Source: Gryganskiella cystojenkinii
Taxonomy: Eukaryota; Mortierellomycota; Mortierellomycetes; Mortierellales; Mortierellaceae
Length of the DNA stretch: 64,000 nucleotides
NCBI GenBank assembly: GCA_015852425.1
Contig: JAAAIG010000075.1
Span: forward strand, 1-64,000
Direction of reading: 5' to 3'
A program made the translations under genes and the position numbers. The notes below the pieces were generated by a model, which was not told the origin of the DNA, made no database searches, and saw only the letters and a program-made list of their open reading frames with translations. Below are positions 12,297-62,060 of this stretch, piece after piece (positions within the stretch are counted from its first letter, which is position 1; every line of letters begins with the position of its first letter).

Positions 12297-12304
12297 ACCG
12301 CTAA

Positions 12305-12344
12305 GGGCCGACAAAGATATATAGAAACCCATCTCTGTCGGCCC
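12305..12344. repeat. Perfect-looking hairpin between two gene fragments
   Basis: A 14-bp stem (12305-12318 with 12331-12344, one mismatch, GGGCCGACA paired with TGTCGGCCC) closes a 12-base loop. It sits between the LRR-like fragment and the Ty3/gypsy fragment and may be a footprint of an element. Confidence 0.6.
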
Positions 12345-12398
12345 CTATCTGATACCATTCAACGATATGCACAAGCACAAATATGTCTCTGCAAGATC

Positions 12399-13256
12399 TT
12401 GCAACTACAGTCTGATGCCGAGCTGCAGGTCACACTCGAGCAGTGCCAATTTCACGTCAAGAAGGTTGAATTCCTTGGGTACATCATCTCGCCCGAAGGA
12501 ATTTCTATGGATCCCGCCAAGGTCGCTGCTATAACCTCTTGGGCCACTCCCAAATCGGCCCGCGATATTTTGGTTTTTCTTGGTTTCGCAAACTTTTATC
12601 GCCGATTCATTAAGCACTTTTCAAAGATTTTGTCCCCAATCACCCGTCGTCTCATGAAGGATGTCCCTTTCGTTTGGGATTCCGCCGCCCAGTCCTCCTT
12701 CGACGAGCTAAAGGAAGCTTTCAGCTCTGACCCTATTTTGGTCCACTTTGACCCACTCAAACCCTGGTTTTTTGGAAACGGATGCGCCCAACCCCCTTGG
12801 AATGTTATCAGCCAGCCTGGTGTTCTCCACCCTGTTGCCTTCTACTCTCGATCCTTCACGGCCCCTGAACGGAGCTACCACATCCTCGACACCGAAATAT
12901 TAGCTGTGGTCGTGGGCGTGGAGCACTTGCGACATTATTTCGCCTACTCAGACTTTCCTGCTACTGTCTTGACCGACCACAAGAACCTGGAATATTTCTC
13001 CCAAAAACGTTCCCTTAGTGATCGACAGATCCGTTATGCTGAACGTCTGTCCAAGTTTAAAGTCATGCTCGGTTACCCTCCAGGTGTTCAAAATGGTGCC
13101 TTGAACGCTCTCTCCAGGTTGCTCACGTCTAAGGAGGAGGAGGAGGAGGAGGAGGAGGAGAAGGGCTGTATCCACGATCCTATTCTGCCTCCGCCCATCA
13201 CTCTCGCCGCCTTCACCGTCGCCACCATTAATGAACAAGTCCACTTCTGCAAATAG
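12399..13256 (+). mobile_element. Ty3/gypsy retrotransposon pol fragment (reverse transcriptase end and RNase H)
   Basis: The 285-codon frame begins inside the reverse transcriptase (KVEFLGYIISPEGISMDPAK, then FLGFANFYRRFI) and runs through the RNase H domain. The second and third RNase H acidic positions are visible in ILDTEILAVV and VLTDHKNLEYF. The segment that should carry the first catalytic Asp ('TDASD' type) is replaced by an unrelated GNGCAQPP stretch, so the domain is inactive. Protease, the reverse transcriptase catalytic YXDD region, integrase and LTRs are absent. A run of GAG codons at about 13132-13160 encodes a poly-Glu tract not usual for this family. It is a dead fragment. Confidence 0.85.
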
Positions 13257-13305
13257 CCGCGAATAAGGCGAGTTTATTATATAATACTGTAAACTTATTT
13301 ATTAA

Positions 13306-13515
13306 TTAATGATACCTACAAATACACTGATGATCTTCATTGCAAAGTCCATCTATAGCGCCATGCGCTTCTTTGCAATCAACTGGACAAAGTACACTAC
13401 CGAGTAACAGGCAGAGAGGACTAACATTCCGTTTGATCAAGTCGGAATCAATAGAGACGGCGCCAACACAAACAACTCCTAAAAACAACATGGATGCTGT
13501 AACAAAGGACTTCAT
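13306..13515 (-). CDS. Secreted defensin-like peptide (CS-alpha-beta type)
   Basis: A single-exon 69-codon gene. Residues 1 to about 20 form a signal peptide with hydrophobic core (MLFLGVVCVGAV). A short propeptide ends in a dibasic KR at 28-29, a Kex2-type site, leaving a mature peptide of 40 residues. Its six cysteines (35, 43, 47, 58, 64, 66) have spacing C-x7-C-x3-C-x10-C-x5-C-x1-C. The CxxxC and CxC pairs and the GLC…C gamma-core (56-64) are the defining marks of the CS-alpha-beta fold seen in plectasin-type fungal defensins, also about 40 residues after a KR site. An antimicrobial, membrane- or lipid II-directed role is inferred from the fold only. Start choice: this ATG gives the signal peptide; an upstream in-frame extension does not. 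A TATATA stretch lies about 100 bp upstream of the ATG. Confidence 0.72.
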   Translation of the reverse strand: MKSFVTASMLFLGVVCVGAVSIDSDLIKRNVSPLCLLLGSVLCPVDCKEAHGAIDGLCNEDHQCICRYH

Positions 13516-14449
13516 AATGAGGGCAATAGCTGAAGAAGAGGCCCGCGGTTTATAATAAGAGAATAATGTAAGACGTGCATTAGCGTTCTGGTTACAGATA
13601 TGGAAAGAAAGACATATATAGATTACAAAGCGGAGAAGAGAGATGGTGAGCGTTGTATTTACCTTGTTTTGAGAGATGGGAGCGTGCAGGAAAAATGTAT
13701 TACTTGCAGTATTTTTCGTGTGGAGAAAGCTGAATAAGGTAGGAGAGGCACAAGAGCAGGCTTTATATCTCAAGGGATGTGGCGTCTTGTGTGGAGAATG
13801 GATTTACAGTGATAAGGATGTCGATATGAGTTTCAGATGAAGACTAAAGAAAATCATAGGCATAACTGATCAAGAGAGGTGTAAAAAAAAATCCTTACAT
13901 TGTTTGCACGTAAAGAGAGCTGGGGATGATGAGAGGGAAGAGAGGAGGAGGATGGCGACCTTTAAATATTGAGGGAAAGTAGACTCAGGACAACTGCAGT
14001 TCATGAGGGCAATACACAGTCCTCTGTAGTCTGTTGCTGATGATGACAGTGTTGTGGCAGAAAAATAAGGCGCTGCAGGACACTAACAGACCCATGCAAA
14101 GCATAAAAAGTGGGGCGCTGAAACGATCAGGAGCATTCCGAGAACAGGCGACCAAGAGAAAAGAGATAAAGGGGAGGCTGAAAATAATCAAGGGATTGGA
14201 AAAAGAGAGGGTTGTAAAACCCAGGGAAGGAGAAAAGCGAGGGAAGCGAAAAGCAAAAGATGGGGAAAGCAAGAGATGAGAAAAAATCAAGGGCATGCTG
14301 TAAAGAAGAGGACACCAGGGCATGCTGACAACAGGAGAGTAAAATTTAAAAAAAATTAAAAAAAAGGGTTGGAATAGCAGGAGATGAAAAAACAATCAAA
14401 GAATGGAAAAGCAAGAGATGCAAAGCAAAGGGGAAAAGGTAAAGGGTGA
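13516..14449. other. Intergenic, defensin promoter side, no further gene seen
   Basis: Purine-rich sequence on the plus strand (GGGAAGAGAGGAGG-type runs) with open frames only because stops are rare in such composition. TATA-like sequences at 13613-13621 and 13762-13767 (minus strand) may serve the defensin-like gene. Confidence 0.4.
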
Positions 14450-15160
14450 AATATTGAGGGAGAGAGATCAAGTTAGAGAACGAGCTTTCGAGACTAGACG
14501 AGATGGACTTCCTGTATCAAATCAGGGAATATCGTCGACGCGTGGCAGCACTGGCTCAGAGCCATGCTCGAAATCAGAGCCCAGGATCAGGATGTGCAGG
14601 TACAGAAAGAAGATAAAGGGCTGACCTTGCTCCAAGATCAGGACCCCTGGAGCCAGCAAGAGCAAGATCATCGACAGGAACAACAGGAACGATAGGAACA
14701 ATGTCATCCTGTACGTCACCATCCCTTACATCCAGCCCCAGCTGAGGAGCAGCAATGCCCTCTGGGTCACCGATATGGACCTGGTCATCAAGAACGACTC
14801 GGTGATGAAGATGAACTCGATCAGCATGGCCAACATGATCAGTAGGTTTATCAGGATGAGTAATCACAAGAACTTCAGCAACAAGGACACATACAAGAAC
14901 AACGGCAACAACAAGAGCAACTTAGAGTTCAACTGCAAAAGATCCAACAAAAGCTGCAACAAGTTCAAGAAGTACATGAGCAGCAAGGATTGGAACTGAA
15001 ATGGCAAGGCGTCAAGTTTGGAGTCGACAAGTTGTTCTTGGAGATGGCTCTGCAGTTCAAGATGAACAAAGTGGATCACACATGGATAGGCAGCCCATTT
15101 GAAGACCAAGCGGGTGATATCGTCCCGGTAATTCCTGCTCTCCTCAGCAACCTCCTGTGA
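14450..15160 (+). pseudogene. Decayed glutamine-rich coiled-coil gene
   Basis: A plus-strand frame starts around KLENELSRLDEMDFLYQIRE, shifts frame near 14560, and continues as a Gln-rich chain (SQQEQDHRQEQQER, later QEQRQQQEQLRVQLQKIQQ) ending KWQGVKFGVDKLFLEMALQ before a stop at 15158-15160. Three further in-frame stops interrupt it (near 14694, 14843 and 14861). The composition and heptads argue that this once coded a coiled-coil protein. No family was recognised. Confidence 0.4.
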
Positions 15161-15396
15161 CCGCGTCTGGGCTGAAGTAGGGTGTCGAGGTTGCAGAGTC
15201 CCTTCAACCACCTCGCTTTGTGAATCTGCGAATAAAAAGAACACCCCCTCCCGTCCGTCATATCCCGTTCAATAGCTTAAATTCTTTCACACCTCGACCT
15301 CCGAGACAAAACGAGACTATTTGTCAACAGCCGCCTTTTTGTTATGACAACGGCACCCGTCCGTCCAGTTCTTCTTGAACTCTTCCTTCCTTCCTT

Positions 15397-15411
15397 CCCC
15401 CCCCCCCCCCC
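15397..15411. repeat. Poly-C tract
   Basis: An uninterrupted run of about 14 cytosines lies about 80 bp upstream of the KAR5 start codon in CT-rich sequence. Such tracts often mark promoter-proximal slippage sites and assembly uncertainty. Confidence 0.7.
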
Positions 15412-15488
15412 CATTTCCTTCATCCTCTCTTTCACACTCTCTCCTGTCGCGTTGAATAGACCTTGCCTAGTACCACTGCCTTGCAGCC

Positions 15489-18434
15489 ATGTTCTATCAC
15501 TACAGCAGACGAGGACCCTTGGTGGTGCTCGTCACTCTCACGCTCTTTATCCTACTCTTACTCATTCAACCCTCGAGTGCGACCATTTTTGACTGGAAAA
15601 AGACCGACTGGTACTCGACACAAGAAGATCTATACCACCATCACACCGCGGACGCACATCCAACAGCAGTTACTCTTGACGATCTATCCGTTGTCAACCG
15701 TGGTATCGGTAATACTCGACATTTTGTTCGTCTTCTATAGAAGATTAGTTTAAACTCCCTCGATGTCGCACTTGGGACCACGGCTAGAGACTCTTCCCTT
15801 ACCTCACTCTCTATTTCGTTTTTTTTGCTATATTTTAAATAGAGTCCCTGGATGCACATGACCATAGAACGGACGACTGCTTCAGAGATGCTGCCAAGGC
15901 CCTCCGTCAGGGGTGTCAGGGTATCGAGCTGGACAAGGACGAGAAGACGAAATGTATGGGCCTCAGTCATGGATCACCGTCATCAGGAAAGAGTGCGAAA
16001 AATATTATTTGCACACAATGTGATTAAAGCAAACCTCGTCTTTCTCTTTTTTCTTTTTATTTTTTTTATCACTTCTTAGATGCTATTCGATTGACAGTCT
16101 GCGAGATCGAGACCGCACATCTCAAGGTCCCTGAGGACTGTCTCCGGATCGGGCTGTCAACAGCGCCTTCCAAGAGGATAGAGAAAATCACCAGCAAGTG
16201 TATTCAGTAAAGTCAATGTTCGATAGCTGGGCATGATGATCCATGGGAGCAAACGGATGGACACCGACTATTGATCGTTATAATTGACTATGACTGGTTT
16301 CTTTCTTATTTTTCGCCGCTTAGATCTCTTGGACGAGTCCCTCAGCACTGGACATCATATACGGGCTATTTTCGAGAAGTCAATATGATGTGCTTGGCTG
16401 TTCGGTATTCCATTGAGCAAGGTACAAGGATGTGATACGGGATATATCAGAGCTAAAAGACCTCAATGGGGAAAAAATACTCTGTGGCAACTGACATTCA
16501 CTTTTATTTTATATATGAATTAGAAGAGTTACGGTCCTTGCAGAGGAATTTGACGAGGGCACAGGAGGATCATATCAGAACCCTGAGACATCATCAAGAG
16601 GAACTCACACTCACACACAAGTTGCAGATGGATCAACTTGAACAACTTCTCCATCTCCATGCGAACCTTAGCGCTGAGGTCAAAAGCACTCTGGTAAGAT
16701 CCTTACCTGTTTCTATGAGTAAGCACATACGGCAGGGTGAACCCATCGGTTCTATCTCTCAGATTTATTTGGTGTCCCCCCCCCCACTTTTTCTTCTTTT
16801 GTCTTCTAGACCACGACCAACACAGTTCGGGACTCGTTGTCCTCGATCCACAAAGATGTCTCGGATCTGTTGATCAAGACCAGTAACGACATTGCTAAAC
16901 AACAAACACATGCTCTTTCATCCCTCAAAGGAGCCAATGACAAGATCTTATCTGAATACCAAAGGGGGATTGCACAGGTAAAAAAAAAAAAAAATGCCCG
17001 AGGAAATTACGGAACGAGAGGTTTGATACGAACACGAATCCAACATAAGCGTTTCATTAACGTTCTTTTTTCTCTTCCTTTCTTTTGGAATGCGTAAACG
17101 CAAGATCTTGGGGTCCATCTCTAAATCCCTTCAGGCCTGGAATCACGGGTTGGACTTCACACTCTCGCGCGCCAAGGACTTTGACAGCGTGGTCGATCGA
17201 CATCAGGTAAAACTTTCTTCTTCTTGGATGTTAATTACTTAACTATCAGATGATCGGTGCATTTTCTGACCAGGATTAATTTTTGTCCGCGTGCCTGTTC
17301 TCGTAATAGGTTGGTGTCCTGGAAGCCAGCAAAGGGCTAGAACTCATCCATGATCGGATTGGACAATCTCAACGTGAGTTGGAAAAAACGATCCACATCG
17401 CCCTCGATGGAGCAAATTCTTTGACGACTCAATCCGCTCAAAACGCAAAAGAGATTCTCCGATCCACCGAGGAGACGAAACAGTCGGTCCATTTGACACT
17501 TATGGCGATGCAAGATCAAGGATTTTTGAACTGGCAAGAAATCCTGGATCAATTCGGAACGGATCTCGCGAGAGCTCAAGAAGAAGCCACGTTCGCACTC
17601 GACATGTTCACATCCAAGGTCGAGGGCGCCACGACTGTGACACATTCCAAATTGCAAGAGATGCATCATCTCACGACCGAGATGCACACGAGACAAGCCC
17701 AGTTCTTCCAGCCGTTGCAAGTCCTCTTCAAAGGCGCGATGCTTCTGGAAGGTAATAAAAGAAAAAGGCGAGAGAAAAAAATCGTCAGTGTTCACAGCGG
17801 AGAGTCATCGTCGTTTTGGGTTATTAACACGAGTGTTTCGGTTTGTTCCACAAATTTCAGGAGTACCCGATGAGTTTGCATTGTTGGCCCTGTTATGCCT
17901 GTGTCTGTACACGCTCATCCACGGACTCATGGTGACGACTTTAGTCTTGATCTTCACCACAATCGTCTGGGCTACTGTAAGAGCAATAGTTCCCTCGGTC
18001 TTGTTCTCAAGGGTCCTGTTCTGTTTGCTAATCTTGTTGTGCCTCTTTGAGCTCTACCCTTGGTGGTTTCTCCGGATTCGAATCCAAATTCCTTCCATCC
18101 CTCAATCCCTTCTATCCCATCACTCACTAAACGATCGCTCTCCTCGATTCCTACTGCCGCTCCTTCTTCCTCGCCGTTGGTTTCTCTTCCATCTCTTTCA
18201 CCGACTCTGTCTCCTCCATCATCTTCGTCTCAACCTCTTTCTCGAGCTTACTCGAGCAAGACTTCTGCGGAGGAGAAACCAACAAAACACCAAGTCAATC
18301 GTGTGCAGCACACAGCTCTTGATTCCAATGTTGTGATCTCCCCAGGTAGTGTCGACTCCTCCCCTGCTCCCTCTCAAGGAACAGGTCTCGAACTGAACAC
18401 ATGGAAGCGTTTGATCTCTGGACCACGAGAGTAA
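15489..18434 (+). CDS. KAR5: Nuclear fusion protein, KAR5/Tht1/Brambleberry family
   Basis: This family acts in the ER and nuclear-envelope lumen in fusing nuclear envelopes during karyogamy. Nine exons fit in frame: 15489-15708, 15843-15953, 16080-16206, 16324-16421, 16524-16693, 16810-16977, 17105-17206, 17310-17751 and 17861 on. A signal peptide (LVVLVTLTLFILLLLIQPSSA) leads the chain. The diagnostic cysteine-rich segment reads DCFRDAAKALRQGCQGIELD, KYAIRLTVCEIETAHLKVPEDC, with a conserved aromatic QHWTSYTGYF and later cysteine. A long helical luminal region and hydrophobic membrane segments (LALLCLCLYTLIHGL, LVLIFTTIVWATV) follow. The C terminus is unsettled: the frame continuing exon 9 stops at 18336 and is L/R/H-rich, while another frame ending at 18434 is Ser/Pro-rich and more protein-like. 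An indel or missed intron near 17980-18060 is possible. Confidence 0.85.
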
Positions 18435-27700: not shown

Positions 27701-28207
27701 TGTCCTGTTGGAAAGAGTTGAAGAAAATACTATACTGTCAGCTGTGCGTCTTGTTCTGTTGTACGTTCAAAGAACCATCGTGTTTAGACGTACATGGCTA
27801 TCCACGTCCATGTCCATGTCCATGTCCACATCCTCTTGACCACTGTGTGTTTGAGTACCGTCGACAGACATGTCATCCTCGTCTTCTGAAGCAGGGACAA
27901 CCTAGAAGGATAGACAAAAGAGGATCAAAGGCAGGTGAGGGTATCAGAGAAACTGACGTTTTTTGAAAGTAAAGAGTGATGAAATGTAAACAAAACGCGT
28001 CCCATTTCATACTACATTTAGATCTGGTGAGGGTTTAGCATGCAGATCCTTAAGGGATTGGTTCTTGGCAGAAATGAGAGCAGTGGGACCAACACAGGAT
28101 AGCTCGAGATGAAAGTCCCGTAGGTGGTGATTCCTCGCAGGTCGCGCATCTTTGATTGATGTTGTTGTTGTTTGGTTGTCATCCACCAGGGGACGCGCTG
28201 GTGGCAT
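18720..28207 (-). CDS. MMS22: MMS22/Mus7-family replication-fork repair protein
   Basis: Nine exons join in frame: 28016-28207, 27794-27901, 25944-27704, 22834-25849, 21440-22740, 21140-21318, 20503-21021, 19722-20377 and 18720-19603, giving about 2871 residues. The 10-N gap lies in the intron after the fifth exon. The N-terminal third is acidic and Ser/Pro-rich with basic patches (RKARSNKRRRISG). The folded part begins near GLYFTRDSYIGRGNLSCLLK. It includes LYRHFSANEFRDLSTEPGYR and DRCFEIFLKIVARTI, patterns I associate with the Mus7/MMS22 domain. In yeasts Mms22 targets the Rtt101-Mms1 cullin ligase to stalled forks and promotes recombination; that role is by family. It is longer than S. pombe Mus7 (about 1900). 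The exon at 20503 uses a GTTCGT donor. It converges with KAR5 (285 bp apart). Confidence 0.72.
21400..21409. other. Assembly gap of 10 N
   Basis: Ten unknown bases lie within the intron between the exons 21440-22740 and 21140-21318 of the MMS22-type gene. The gap does not disturb the reading frame. Confidence 0.99.
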
Positions 28208-29943: not shown

Positions 29944-31911
29944 ATGACCACCGGACATTTCTCAACCTCTCAAGTCGCCTCTCACAACTCGGAGGTAATT
30001 TCCGATCAACCGTCCTTTACGAGCGCGATTATCTCGGAGCTCACCAACTAATTGTATCTCTATTTTCCTGTATTGCTCTCTGAGAACGACTGCTGGGTTA
30101 TCATCCATGATAAAGTCTATGACGTCTCAAGGTTTTTGAAGGACCATCCCGGTGGAAAGGTAATCGACTGTTGCAATAAGCAAAAGAGACCAGCAAGAGA
30201 GCACACCTCTTGCCACCGAGCAAGATCTCAACAACGGCGTGAATACAAGAACTTAAAGCGCATGATCTCCATATTTAAAATGAACTTTATAGAAAATCAT
30301 TCTAAAGAACGCCGGAACAGATGCCACAAAGCAATTCGATGCTTTCCACAACGCAGGTAAGAATCGTCGGAAATGGTTTCTGTACCCCCTTTATTTGTGT
30401 TTCTTTTGCTTCATGATATTCCAAGTGTCAAGCACTAAAATACCATTGAATGTACGGCGACTGTTCTTTTTTTTTTTTAAAAAAAAAAAGGCGTCCTCGA
30501 AAAGTACGGCGCTCTTTGCATCGGTGTCATTGATGGGGCTCCTCAGTCAGGAGAGGCTGCTCCAGCTGCCACCTCATCCACTGCCGATGACGATGAAATG
30601 CAATTCGGAGAGATGATTCCCTTTGGCGATCCGTCCTGGTACCAACAGTGGGCCAGTCCTTTCTACAAAGAATCACATCGTCGCCTTCGACGCGCTATGC
30701 GCGAATTTGTTGACACCGAGATCATGCCCTTTGCTCACGAGTGGGATGAGGCCAAACAGGTCCCCATGTTCCTGTTCAAGAAGTGCGCCGAAATGGGCTT
30801 GCTAGCCGTATTTGCCGGTACGGGTCATCTCCCTGTCGAGTACTTTGATGTCGAGCAAACGACCTTGTTCAAGGGTGGCGCCAATGCTATTGTCCCCCCA
30901 GAGGAATTCGACGCCTTCCATTCTTTGATTGTCAGTGATGAATTCTCCCGTTGTGGTTCCGGCGGTGTCATTTGGTGTCTCTCCGGTGGCATCGGTATCG
31001 GTCTCCCACCCATTATCAAGCACGGTTCTGAAGAATTGAGACGTCGAATTGTCCCTGAATGTTTGGCCGGTCGCAAGACCATCTGTTTGGCCATCACAGA
31101 ACCCCAGGCTGGATCGGATGTCGCCAACTTGACCACGGTTGCGAACGAGACCCAGGATGGTTATATCGTCAACGGCGAAAAGAAATGGATCACCAACGGA
31201 ACTTTTGCTGATTATTTCACAGTTGCGGTCAGAACCGGTGGTGAGGGTATGGGTGGTGTATCTTTATTGATCATTGAGCGTTCTATGCCCGGCGTCTCTA
31301 CCCGCCAGATGAAGTGTTCAGGTGTCTGGTCCTCCGGAACAGCTTATATCAACTTGGAGGATGTCCTCGTTCCAAAGTCCAACATTGTCGGGAAGGAGAA
31401 CCGTGGATTCAAGTACATTGTCAGCAACTTTAACCATGAACGTATGGCTCTCGTCTTCCAGGCTAACCGTCTCGCTCGTATCTGTCTCGAGGAAGCGATC
31501 AAGTACGGAAGCAAACGCAAGACTTTTGGAGTCAAGTTGGTCAACCACCCTGTGCTCCGGAACAAGCTCGCACATATGTCTCGAATGATCGAGGCCACGC
31601 ATGCCTGGACCGAAAATGTGGTCTACCAGACCATGACGATGCCCGAGGATTTGCAAATGATAAAGCTCGGTGGACCGATTGCCTTGCTCAAGGCCCAGGC
31701 GACCCAGACACTCGAGTACTGCGCCCGTGAAGCGTGCCAGATCTTTGGTGGTCTTGCTTATACCCGTGGTGGTCAGGGTGAGAAGGTCGAGCGTATTTAC
31801 CGCGAGGTTCGTGCCTTTGCTATCCCTGGTGGATCTGAGGAGATTATGTTGGATCTTGGTATGCGCGAGTCGATAAAGGTTGCAACGATGATGTACGGCG
31901 CAAAGTTGTAG
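29944..31911 (+). CDS. Cytochrome b5-acyl-CoA dehydrogenase fusion protein
   Basis: Four exons, 29944-29994, 30085-30159, 30293-30356 and 30491-31911, encode 536 residues in one frame. Residues from about 18 to 70 are a cytochrome b5-like heme domain: [22 protein letters not shown] carries the first heme-ligand His in HPGG, and FDAFHNAG supplies the second. The rest is a complete acyl-CoA dehydrogenase fold with the FAD and substrate signatures [30 protein letters not shown] and the C-terminal [25 protein letters not shown]. Such fungal fusions may route electrons between the flavin and heme within one chain, which is inference. The substrate and compartment are not evident; there is no clear mitochondrial presequence. 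An AATAAA follows the stop at 31951-31956. The acceptor of exon 4 lies in a T/A homopolymer run. Confidence 0.9.
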
Positions 31912-38305: not shown

Positions 38306-40021
38306 CTACAAAGACACCGACCCGCTCTTCTTCTTCTGCTCGGCCTCATAGCGCTTCGATGGCTTTTGGGGTTGAACATGACCACTTCCCCGTTGAGGCG
38401 TCTGGGGCAAGAACGCAATCTGAGGACGCCACGATGCACTCGCAATGATAGAGTTATCCTTGACCGACTGAGGGATCCAGTTCAACATCAGGTACCGAAG
38501 ACACTTCTCCCACCAGGTCTGACCGTGGAGGATGATCGCGTTGATATTGCTGCTATCAACTTGAACCTTGACATGAGGGTATTGTTGCTCCTTGTAGTCC
38601 TTCAACGCCGCCTCGATCGATTCCTGTTTCAAGGAATCAAGGTCGTACAGACAGTTGGCCAAGATAACCGCATCCTGCATCGCGCAAATGGCTCCTTGCC
38701 CTGCGCTTGGAAGGAGCTGTTCAGAGAAGAGAAATTAAAAGACAGATTAAGTCTCAGTGACTACAATAGAAAAAGAATACGACCTCACAAAAATCAATCA
38801 AGGCGCTTTACCTTGTGAGCGGCATCTCCGATCAAAACAGTGCGTCCATGAGTCCAGGTCTCAAACAACTTGTCCTCGAGGTAAACACGCGAGATTTTGC
38901 CCTTTGGAGTCTTGTCGAACAAATCTCCAAGGGTCTTGCCCTTGGGAATCTTGTACTCTTTCAGTTTCTCCAGCATCTCGGTAGTTCTCTCAGAGCTCCA
39001 TTGACTACCCTTCTCCTTCTCAGTCTCGATCTCTGCTTGGTTCGCCAATTCTTGAATGATCACATAGCATAACCGGTTCTCTCGAACGTTGAAGACCGTG
39101 AAACTGTAAGGTGTTCCCTGAGCAATGATCTGATGGTAATCCGAGCGATCCTGCAACACCAGCGGGAAGTCTTTGGGGTCCAAGGGATCTGTGGTGCCGA
39201 CCAGACAGACATAGCCCTTCTTCATTGTCAAGGCGTCAGATGCGGGCAACAAGTTCTCATACTTGAGGTGTCTGTAAAGCGATTCACGGACAGCACTGTA
39301 GGCGCCATCGGCACCGACGAGGATATCTCCGTGGAACGAGGTTCCATCCTCGCAGTGGATTGTAACACCTTCATGGTTTTGTTCAGTCGAGACAATCTTT
39401 TTGTTGAAGTGGATCTTCTTGCTCGGGATCTTGGAGTGGAGAAGGGAGATCATACGCACGCGGTAAAACATGGCGTAATCGTAGCCGACCCTTAAAGAGT
39501 AAAAAGGGAAGTAGAAAAGTCATTAATGGCGATGGTCAATTTATAATTTGACGAGTAATGGCCACGGGAAAACCGATATTTATACTCACTGGCCACGCTG
39601 GTTCTTCGTGTCCATTTTGGCAACTTTATCCAAGTTGTCGTAAAGGATCTCGATGGATGTGTTGGGCAGGGAGATCTCCTTGAACTCTTTGTAAAGATCC
39701 AATTGCTCAAAAACAGGCAAGATGTTGGCGTTGATACCCATGACAGAGCCTGCGAGTTTTCAGAGTTTGAATGAGATAGGAGAAACGAGTGTCAATAGAG
39801 TCTGCAAATAATGACGGCATCATGGCAACATGACTTTGAGGCATAGGAGAAAAATTTAAAAAAAATTACTTACCGACTGTCCTGACCTCAGGAGCGCGTT
39901 CATAGATCTCATATGGGATACCAGCACGCTCGAGAACAATTCCTAGGAAGAGACCACCAATACCGGCACCGGCGATCAATACGCGTGGCTTGGGGTTTTC
40001 AGTTGCGTGATGGGCGGTCAT
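38306..40021 (-). CDS. FAD-dependent monooxygenase, array member 1
   Basis: Four exons (39874-40021, 39590-39749, 38812-39490, 38306-38716) encode 465 residues. The dinucleotide-binding GAGIGGL lies at about 18-24, followed by LERAGIPYEIYER. The conserved DG motif (GADGAYSAVR) is near 162, and GDAAHK with SAGQG near 324-337 binds the FAD ribityl and pyrophosphate. These three motifs define group A flavoprotein hydroxylases (PF01494; salicylate hydroxylase/zeaxanthin epoxidase-like). The substrate is unknown. There is no signal peptide or clear membrane anchor; the tail is basic (RYEAEQKKKSGSVSL). It is the member closest to RPN5 and shares the LCYV…NRLCY core with its neighbours. It lacks the intron that members 2 and 5 have ahead of the WGP-like motif. 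Confidence 0.9.
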
Positions 40022-43955: not shown

Positions 43956-45884
43956 CTATGGAGGCAAAGAGGTAAAATCGGAAGAAGTTGGGAAAAGCCC
44001 AGAAGACATATTTGAAGGTGTCATCATCTCTTGAAAGACTGGCTGCTGGTGTCGCGTTCTCTTCTTCGACTCTTGTTCACATCTCTTGGACGGTATCTGA
44101 GGTTGTACAGGTCCTGTGCCCCGTTTAACCGCTAACGGCAGGAAGCTCAATTGAGGTCTGTAAGAAGCATCCTTGACGATGGCCCTGGTTTTCATCGACT
44201 GTGGGAGCATATTAAAGGTGAAATGACGAACGAACTTTTCCTTGAAGGTCTGAAAAAAATACCCCACAAAAAAGAGTAAACATCAAAGAGAACGTTAACT
44301 TTCCAATAAAAAAGCGGATACGGTCTAGAACAAACATTTGCAGAGGGGGGGGGGGGGGGTTTGTGGCAAAAAAAACAAGGGTTTGTTATTTCTGTCAATC
44401 CTTACATGACCATGAAAGATAATGGCGTTCCTGTTGCTGTTCTCGACCTGGATCTTGACTTGTGGGTACCGTTGATCCCGATAGTCCTTCAACGCCGCCG
44501 CTATATCTAATGGTCCCCAGGACGGCATATCGTAAAGACAATTGACCAACACAACCGCATCCTGCATCGCACAGACAGCGCCTTGACCTGCACTAGGTAG
44601 TAACTAGAAGTAAAGTATACAAAAGAAAAACACAAGTTGCCTCAGATTTTCGAGGAATATCCTTTTCTACCCTTTTTTTTTCCTTTTTGTTGTTGTTTTG
44701 CAATCAGAAAACGAGCTGATTTGCGAAATGAAAAAACATAAAATACCTTATGAGCTGCATCGCCCATCAAGGCAATTCGACCATGGTTCCAGGTCTTGAA
44801 CAACTTGTCCTCGAGATAGACTCTTGATATCGACTCGTTGGGTGTATGGAAGAATAAATCGCCCAACGTCCGACCGTATGGTAATTTGAAATCCTTGATC
44901 TCCTCCATCATCTCCAGAGCTCGTTCCGGCTCCCAAGGAATTCCGTTGTACTTTTCTTCTTCACATTGAGCCGCAGACGCGAGTTGACGAACGACTAAAA
45001 AGCAGACCCTGTTGTCCGGCACGTTAAAGATCGAGATGCTGTAGGGACTATCGCCTCCCAGAATTTGGAAAAAATTACTCTGGCTAGGTTCTAGTAGAGG
45101 GAACCTTTCGGGGTCCAATTGGATGGTGGTCCCGACGAGACAAATGTATCCCTTGTTCATTTCCTTTGTATCCTTGACTGGTAAGAGACCCGCACAATGA
45201 ACCGTTCGGTAGAGCGCATCTCGAACGGCACTGTATGCTCCATCGGCTCCGATGAGGATGTCACCATCATACGATGTCCCGTCCTCGCATCGGATATAGA
45301 CACCGTTGTTCGAGTTGTGTTCTGCCCAGACCACCCTCTTGTTGAAATGAATCTTATCCATCGAGACCTTGGAAACCAAGAGATCCATGAGGGCACCTCT
45401 TCGGAACAAATGGTAAGGATATCCGGTGTGCTCATGTGTGGCCGAGATATCGATGCTGGCGATCCTTTCTAGCTTAGCATTGAGGAACTCGATTCCATTG
45501 CTGGGTAAGGAAATTGATTTGAGTTCGTCATAGAGTCCAAGTTGTTCAAAGACTGGAAGGATGTTGGCATTAATGCCCATGATAGAGCCTACTTTTAAAG
45601 AGGCAAAAAAGATATCAGAGAGGATCCTATGGTCAGGCCAATGGCTCGCCCCCAAGAAAAAAAAAAAGGTACAAAAGTATCCTGAAGAAATAAAAATGAG
45701 AGACTGTACCCATGGCTTTTATGGCTGAGCCGCGTTCAAAGATTTCGTATGTGATTCCAGCCCTGTCGAGGAGAATAGCGAGAAAGAGACCGCCAATACC
45801 GGCACCAGCGATCAGTACCTGAGGGTGGTTGTTGATGCTGTAAGGCGGAGGAGGAGCAGAATTCATGGTGTATGATGTCGACAT
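43956..45884 (-). CDS. FAD-dependent monooxygenase, array member 3
   Basis: Four exons (45710-45884, 44747-45588, 44406-44603, 43956-44249) encode 502 residues. FAD motifs: IAGAGIGGLFLAILLDRAG, IGADGAYSAVRDAL, MGDAAHK|LLPSAGQG. It is the most divergent of the first four, with a FLNAKLERIASIDISATHEH region in place of the usual KK(I/V)A…D segment. The intron that the others carry before (V/I)GYD is absent, so exons 2 and 3 are fused. A second Met seven residues in could also start translation. The tail is longer than in its paralogs, about 35 residues of Ser/Thr/Pro/Phe after the basic KKRTRHQQ. Substrate unknown. Confidence 0.88.
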
Positions 45885-60284: not shown

Positions 60285-62060
60285 TCATTGCTCAGCGACG
60301 CTGGCCATCTGCTCGGCCTTCTTACGCCGTTGCTTCTCTTCGTATCTCTTGGATGGTCTCTGGAATTGGACGTAACCGGAGCCTCGTTTCGGAGGCGGAG
60401 GCAAGAACACCGCGTGAGGGCGGTTGGATGCATCTTTGATCAGGGCCTTGTTCTTGAGCGATTGTGGCATCCATTTGAACAGAGTCTGGCGCAAAACTCT
60501 TTCAAAAAGAGTCTAAGAAAGTTTGAGCACAAAAAAAAAAATGTTATTCCCTCAACAAAACAGCAGTGAGTATCCAGTCGCTCACTGTCGTTTTTTTTTT
60601 TATTTCTTTTCTTTTACCTGGCCATGAAGCAGCATCGAATTGATATAACTGTTGGTAACCTGGATTTTGACTTGGCCATATCGTTGGTCCCTGTAATCCT
60701 TCAAGGCGGCTTTGATATGTGCATGATCAAGTGATTCGAGATCATAGAGGCAGTTCGCCAACACGACTGCATCTTGCATCGCGCATACCGCTCCTTGTCC
60801 ACCAGCCGGAAGCAACTGACGAAAATAAAAATCGCGTAAATCGTCATCTTAAAGAATCAACATCAGACGAAACAATGACTTTCGACGCCTCTTCCCATCT
60901 TTACCTTGTGAGCGGCATCGCCGATGAGAACAGTCCGTCCAAAAGTCCAGGTCTCGAACAGCTTATCTTCCAGATACACATGCGAAATACTCTCAAGAGG
61001 AGTTTCATCGAAAAGATCCTGAACGAGGACTATTCTTTCTGCGCCTCCATACGGTACTTTGAACCCCTTGATCTCTGCCATCATCTCTTCCTTGGTGTTC
61101 CTTTTCCCTGTTGTCCCCCACTCCGAATCACTCGCATGTTCGTCTGGTGATTCCGTCATCATATCGAATTGACAAGTCACCATGTACGCCAACCGGTTCC
61201 CGGTCACATTAAAGATGGTCATAGAATAAGGTGTCCCTTCGACCAAGATCTGGACATGGTCCGAACGTGTCCTGTTATCGACCTCGGGGTACAATTTTGG
61301 ATCCAAGGGGTTGGTGGTCCCGACCAAACAAGAGTAACCTTTGTTGATTTCTTTCAAATCCGAGGGTGCCAATATTCCATTTAAGCATTGAAGAGATTCA
61401 AAGAGAGATTGACGAACGGTCGAGTAGGCGCCATCGGCCCCGACGAGGACATCCCCAGAATAGGTCATCCCGTCCTCGCAAAAGATCACTACCTCTTCGG
61501 TGTTTTGCTCGATGGACCGGATGGTGTTGCCAAGATGGATCCTTTGAGCTGGGACCTTGGATTGTAAAAAGCGTAGAAAATCAACACGAGAAAAGATCCA
61601 AAAGTCGTAACCGACCCTAAGAACCGCCGCAATAAATAGTTGGAAAATAAAAGGGCAAAGTTCAATTCCATGAATGGCATGTGTGCGGAGCACAACTTCA
61701 CTTGCACAAAAAGAAAAAGAAAATAGAAACTTACAGCTCGTTTAGATTGCCCGAGTCCATGGTGGCAATGCTCCCCAGGTTTCCGTCCAAGATATCCAGA
61801 TGCGTGCAAGGAAGAGCAAACTGTTTAAACTCTTCCAAGAGTGCGAGTTGTTCCAGGGCGGATAAGATATTAGCATTGAGTCCCATTGCCGATCCAACCG
61901 TCTTGAACTCTGTCGAACGCTCAAAGATATCGTAGGTTATCTCTGCACGGTCAAGAAGGATGGCGAGGAAGAGACCACCGATACCAGCACCGGCGATCAA
62001 AACATGGGGTTTGCGATTCTCGCGAGTAGGTACGGACTCTGGGTTTGGGAGGGAGGCCAT
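60285..62060 (-). CDS. FAD-dependent monooxygenase, array member 7 (divergent)
   Basis: Four exons (61735-62060, 60905-61616, 60618-60815, 60285-60512) encode 487 residues. FAD motifs are IAGAGIGGLFLAILLDRAE, VGADGAYSTVRQSL and IGDAAHK|LLPAGGQG (Gly for Ser-Ala order unlike the others). The intron after the first FAD motif is absent, so the first two family exons are continuous. There is an insertion of about nine residues (YGGAERIVLVQDLF) where paralogs read YG(M/R)TLGDLF, and an extra TTGKRNTKEE stretch. HLGNTIRSIEQN replaces HFNKK(I/V). It is the most diverged copy and probably the oldest or functionally distinct one. Substrate unknown. Confidence 0.9.

Follow-up and report, generated by a model that had tools for sequence, protein, structure and literature searches.

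We identify, on the minus strand of a 64,000-nucleotide stretch of DNA from Gryganskiella cystojenkinii, a soil fungus related to Mortierella (Mortierellomycota, Mortierellaceae; contig JAAAIG010000075.1, positions 1 to 64,000; hereafter the window), a single-frame open reading frame (ORF) whose product, the window peptide, is likely defensin-like. With somewhat less assurance, we also consider it probable that the fungus has here a genuine gene, apparently unannotated, whose secreted product is an acidic and divergent defensin-like peptide. The evidence comes from a complete six-cysteine framework set in a secretory precursor layout, from simulations in which this architecture did not arise, and from comparison with known fungal peptides and with a canonical defensin, termed L002, that is encoded elsewhere in the same assembly.

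Precursor architecture

The first-pass annotation of this DNA had described a hydrophobic start, a KR pair, a 40-residue mature part, cysteine spacing of 7/3/10/5/1 and a GxC motif, and all of these features are present in the ORF (Table 1). The signal peptide is predicted from hydropathy alone, with a best 12-residue Kyte-Doolittle mean of 2.72 for the N-terminus. The KR pair occupies residues 28-29 of the precursor, leaving a remainder of 40 residues that contains one Lys and one Arg. The arrangement Cys...Cys-X3-Cys...Cys...Cys-X1-Cys, the cysteine criterion for fungal defensin-like peptides, is found in the window peptide, and its GLC-x5-C segment conforms to the gamma-core form Gly-X-Cys-X3-9-Cys as defined in the portion of PMC10040121 available to us, with Gly at -2 of Cys4. 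The GxC precedes the C-terminal CxC, and the stop codon lies three residues past the last cysteine. Position -3 relative to the ATG carries an A, and a second AATAAA, again a weak motif match, begins 28 nt past the stop. The branch-point pattern applied to the 300-nt leader of the ORF gave no intron candidate.

In the mechanism that we propose, the signal peptide would be removed in the endoplasmic reticulum and a Kex2-type protease would cut after the KR pair. Three disulphides, C1-C4, C2-C5 and C3-C6, would give the 40-residue peptide a helix joined to a two-stranded sheet. The peptide may then act outside the hypha on competing microbes, by way of its hydrophobic first loop and sheet hairpin and not through the lipid II contacts of plectasin.

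Table 1. Positions of the peptide gene, its parts, nearby features and the canonical defensin (window coordinates unless a locus is given)
Feature	Position	Strand	Basis or remark
Single-frame ORF, 69-residue precursor of defensin-like peptide	13306..13515	-	ATG to TAA, 69 codons
Signal-peptide-like N-terminus, residues 1-21	13453..13515	-	Hydropathy; cleavage after A19 or S21 is an estimate
Short propeptide IDSDLIKR, residues 22-29, ending in KR (Kex2-type) site	13429..13452	-	Sequence
Predicted mature peptide, 40 residues	13309..13428	-	Calculated isoelectric point 5.25, charge about -3 at pH 7; calculated mass 4340 Da reduced, about 6 Da lower with three disulphides
Six-cysteine framework C-x7-C-x3-C-x10-C-x5-C-x1-C	13318..13413	-	Pattern search
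Gamma-core form G-L-C-x5-C	13324..13350	-	Sequence and definition of PMC10040121
AATAAA, possible poly(A) signal, starting 3 nt past stop	13298..13303	-	Short motif in AT-rich DNA, weak
TATAAA, 252 nt before ATG	13762..13767	-	Motif match only, weak
TATAAA, 39 nt before ATG	13549..13554	-	Motif match only, weak
Canonical defensin L002, 66-residue precursor	G000:C125:6223-6423 (L002:1411-1611)	+	Pfam Defensin_2 search
Retroelement reverse transcriptase/RNase H fragment, neighbour outside the peptide gene	12507..13256	+	PF17917 8e-21, PF17919 3.4e-17

Chance expectation

Across the six frames of the window, the ORF was the only match to the exact framework pattern, and the same was true of a relaxed pattern. 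A looser pattern permitting extra cysteines gave one further match, at 27706, with a layout that is not defensin-like by eye. Elsewhere in the assembly, a scan of 219,801 bases (L010-L033) gave 0 occurrences of the relaxed framework. For the chance expectation, 2252.8 Mb (about 64 genome equivalents) were simulated with an order-4 Markov model built from the two strands of the window. This sequence contained the relaxed framework 326 times, in 15 cases with GxC and in 124 with a stop no more than 10 residues behind; such a stop combined with a Met ahead of the framework and a hydrophobic start was seen 0 times. In a smaller order-2 simulation of 60 runs the bare relaxed framework was commoner (0.05 per 64 kb), and the exact cysteine spacing arose in 0 of the 60 runs. 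At these rates a genome should contain several bare frameworks by chance, but not the complete architecture. Chance is a poor explanation of the whole architecture.

The individual features are less distinctive. Among 848 ATG-initiated ORFs of 45-110 residues in 286,903 bases, 75 had a hydrophobic start, 16 had six cysteines behind the start and four had both; these four include the window ORF and L002, the latter placed in the set deliberately. As a class, ORFs that look secreted and are rich in cysteine are not very rare, and it is the combination with the framework that sets the window ORF apart.

A canonical defensin in the same genome

The mature part of L002 opens with FGC, and the sequence carries CKKHC, GRC and CVC. 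It exceeds the cut-offs of both Defensin_2 and Gamma-thionin, matches the solved defensins 2ru0 (7e-6) and micasin (0.0021), and gives an NCBIfam match to actinodefensin (2.4e-9) that is below the cut-off. L002 and the window peptide are alike in the six-cysteine framework, the single open frame and the precursor length (66 versus 69 residues). Unlike the window peptide, L002 has no KR propeptide, and it has the FGC start, the His and the profile matches. In the search of their own genome, the two peptides did not find each other.

Neither peptide is represented in the protein database that we searched. The homologue search with the window peptide gave no candidate sharing three words, and that with L002 gave no candidate homologue. 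Among viral contigs 75 stretches fitted a search pattern and among prokaryote contigs 243, and none was confirmed. The missing record of the window peptide is therefore uninformative, since a canonical defensin has none either, although the database does hold a protein of the window's contig, the product of the acyl-CoA dehydrogenase ORF at 30598-31911 (100% identical).

Profile searches, loop similarity, fold models and codon usage

Several results do not support the window peptide as a defensin-like gene product. The first-pass annotation had proposed a search with defensin hidden Markov models, and this failed to support it: no Pfam or NCBIfam model matched the window peptide at E values up to 10, and the curated cut-offs of Defensin_2 and Gamma-thionin, both passed by L002 as positive control, were not reached. 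We also carried out a cysteine-anchored shuffle test with L002, plectasin, micasin and the arthropod defensin 2ru0 as references, four of the five sequences of alignment A4; MGD-1 was left out because its eight cysteines do not fit the pattern. Of 3000 shuffles, 1680 scored as well as the window peptide did when compared with the four defensins, whereas for each reference defensin, compared with the other three, 0 of 1000 did so. Taken loop by loop, the score was reached by 1876 of 2000 shuffles for the first loop, 1389 of 2000 for CxxxC and 1925 of 2000 for the c-loop. For the C3-C4 loop the figure was 53 of 2000, a weak signal because four loops were looked at. Outside the cysteines, the window peptide thus appears no closer to the four reference defensins than shuffles are, except for the weak third-loop signal, and its sequence does not establish a relationship to L002 or to other defensins. 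MAFFT alignments A1-A3 set the cysteines out of register, and A3 was used for the C3-C4 stretch alone.

Two low-confidence fold models of the window peptide disagree, so that the fold check suggested in the first-pass annotation gave a divided answer. The model of the mature part had no match of the cysteine-stabilized alpha-beta (CS-alpha-beta) type in a structure comparison against 6 chains only; the model of the precursor, compared with 62 chains including the eurocin structure, resembles CS-alpha-beta peptides and may speak weakly for that fold. In addition, codon usage of the ORF is unlike that of the window's long ORFs, at -0.063 bits per codon for synonymous choice (mean +0.039 and standard deviation 0.055 over 59 coding pieces; mean -0.034 over 129 control ORFs), and 86 of the 129 control ORFs equal or exceed its score. 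The codon measure does not decide, however, because the canonical defensin L002 scores alike (-0.050).

The best PDB sequence matches, not significant, were Jagged-1 (E 0.18) and the lentil defensin Lc-def (E 0.49), the latter ungapped from C2 to C6. An EGF/DSL-like domain, as in Jagged-1, was rejected: the last part alone matches, and the stop after CxC leaves insufficient space for the remaining domain.

Comparison with known fungal peptides

In what follows, published systems are compared as far as the consulted portions of the cited papers describe them. Two strains of Mortierella alpina carry 14 and 10 defensin-like genes (PMC4165938). These malpisins (fDEF1 and fDEF6) come from the same fungal family and share the framework and small secreted precursors; some have a propeptide ending in basic residues, and many are near-neutral or acidic. 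They form an expanded family, whereas no paralog of the window gene was found in searches of low sensitivity. Licosin of Lichtheimia corymbifera is a near-match in layout, being intron-free with a 68-residue precursor, a signal of 20, a propeptide of 7 ending in Lys-Arg and a three-disulphide mature part of 41 residues (PMC13199095). It is active on Gram-positive bacteria and also blocks the Kv1.3 channel, in the latter case via lysines 34 and 35; the mature part of the window peptide has one Lys and one Arg. Both malpisins and licosin were compared by description only.

Plectasin, micasin and eurocin share the framework and GxC with the window peptide, and plectasin also has 40 residues and, between C3 and C4, a loop of ten residues of which two are glycines. 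The first-pass annotation was right that cysteine spacing and the hydrophobic first loop differ from plectasin: the window peptide has 7 hydrophobic or small residues there, plectasin 10 residues. It further lacks the FGC start, has Asp for His18 and is acidic, and its similarity to plectasin and to micasin is not significant. The Zytrisins of Zymoseptoria tritici (PMC5234102) have the typical framework and Gly at -2 of Cys4 and, except for Zytrisin-1, no database similarity; they differ in having two conserved introns and 29 typical genes, whereas the window gene needs no intron and is the one gene known.

Because M. alpina has defensin-like genes and licosin shares a near-identical precursor plan, the kind is already known, and the window peptide is probably a new, divergent member of the fungal defensin-like peptides. 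The earlier appeal to fungal-defensin logic is supported by the framework, the gamma-core form, the precursor layout and the occurrence of the kind in Mortierella; similarity to a defensin profile, loop similarity beyond the cysteines and a confident CS-alpha-beta fold are not supported. Titles and abstract openings of the literature on Mortierella cystojenkinii and on Mortierellaceae defensins contain no report of this gene.

Alternative explanations and possible function

The lack of similarity outside the cysteines save in the third loop, the missing profile match and the mature-part model would all be expected of a small, cysteine-rich secreted product that is a defensin neither in ancestry nor in fold, with a lineage-specific surface, signalling or interaction role and a convergent cysteine spacing. 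The same can be said of a second secreted-looking cysteine-rich ORF with another pattern on the same contig (L010, below). We nevertheless regard this explanation as unlikely, given the placing and order of CxxxC, GxC and CxC with the stop so close behind, and the resemblance of the precursor model to CS-alpha-beta peptides; Zytrisins other than Zytrisin-1 were, in the consulted part of their description, also without database similarity. Less probable still is an unexpressed chance ORF. The protein database holds no record of it, codon usage is neutral, and a retroelement fragment lies about 50 nt away; on the other side stand the 0 comparable ORFs in the simulated 2252.8 Mb, the equal absence of L002 from the database, and the A at -3 of the ATG with AATAAA just past the stop.

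A plectasin-type antibiotic, killing Gram-positive bacteria by binding lipid II, is the least probable of these alternatives and in our view very improbable. The contacts of plectasin with lipid II are reported as Phe2, Gly3, Cys4, His18 and Cys37 (PMC10771296, consulted in part). L002 carries all five, but the window peptide keeps only the two cysteines; counting from the cysteines, Pro, Leu and Asp replace Phe, Gly and His. The calcium-binding acidic patch DEDD of plectasin sits in the first loop according to the portion of PMC11222147 available, whereas the first loop of the window peptide, LLLGSVL, is uncharged and has no such patch. In favour of a plectasin-type action are the length of 40, C2xxxC3 and the C3-C4 loop length of 10, and within this loop Lys1, Gly5 and Gly9 are shared with plectasin (sequence from PMC10771296; alignment A3). 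The consulted part of PMC6181372 cites acidic members as > 60% of putative fungal defensins and reports acidic AfusinC as active against Gram-positive bacteria, though not all acidic ones are active. For the antibacterial peptide proposed earlier, an action of the plectasin type becomes less likely because the lipid II residues are missing. The c-loop of the window peptide, NEDHQ, has no Lys or Arg, as in Zytrisin-1, which lacks a cationic c-loop residue and is reported inactive (PMC5234102, in part). This sign alone does not separate the window peptide from L002, whose c-loop also has no Lys or Arg. That the window peptide is antimicrobial and affects other microbes through contacts that do not involve lipid II is a tentative proposal that we put at somewhat under an even chance, and other extracellular roles are serious rivals to it. 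We give only a small chance to a more elaborate arrangement, in which the genome would pair its canonical lipid II-type defensin with an acidic CS-alpha-beta peptide specific to a lineage of Mortierellaceae, hydrophobic in its first loop and directed at a target other than lipid II, as a two-component arsenal with divided tasks.

The suggested use against endosymbiotic bacteria found no evidence in the assembly. Two bacterial small-subunit ribosomal RNA (SSU rRNA) matches were obtained, with 5 of 433 first-look candidates scored. The stronger, bacterial-type match (787 bits, G000:C269:39909-41441) lies in sequence of 27% GC and is probably the mitochondrial genome; the other is nuclear SSU rRNA. 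Symbiont sequences could be hidden if the assembly was filtered.

Copy number and genomic surroundings

The retroelement fragment lies tail-to-tail with the peptide gene and ends about 50 nt from its 3' end. No second copy of the peptide gene was found in the 35-Mb assembly by protein and DNA searches, which are insensitive to distant paralogs. An own-genome search with plectasin found nothing, although L002 is present, so its sensitivity is low and little weight attaches to the lack of paralogs. The possibility that the gene is part of a repeat or long terminal repeat was rejected, as a DNA search that skips very common words gave no match to 13257-14000 anywhere else in the genome. By the same type of search, the stretch holding the retroelement fragment (12301-13256) has no second copy in the assembly.

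Other weak family matches in the genome were set aside. The framework is incomplete in L003 and L008, and in L007 the first cysteine is missing. L009 (G000:C1023:11263-11331, +), a weak Gamma-thionin match, shows C, CxxxC and GGRC within a single frame and then a stop, and no CxC codon pair that could mark a second exon occurs in the 240 bases behind it.

On the same contig as the peptide gene, L010 (G000:C816:64001-74000) contains on its + strand an 87-residue secreted-looking cysteine-rich ORF with a non-defensin cysteine pattern. The region 14001-16000, adjoining the gene, is purine-rich, with the highest AT skew of 32 bins (0.196, A-rich). Three FAD_binding_3 monooxygenase-like ORFs lie within 23 kb (38794-39471, 44642-45580 and 60863-61468, all on the minus strand) and are probably exons of separate but similar genes.

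Implications

The two defensin-like genes found here suggest that gene annotation misses such genes in this genome, as neither has a record in the searched database. Most of the well-studied peptides of this kind are cationic or resemble plectasin, and the window peptide adds a divergent acidic one. Should it prove active, it could help to identify the parts of the framework that killing requires when the lipid II contacts are absent; should it prove inactive, it would agree with reports that some fungal defensin-like peptides have other roles.
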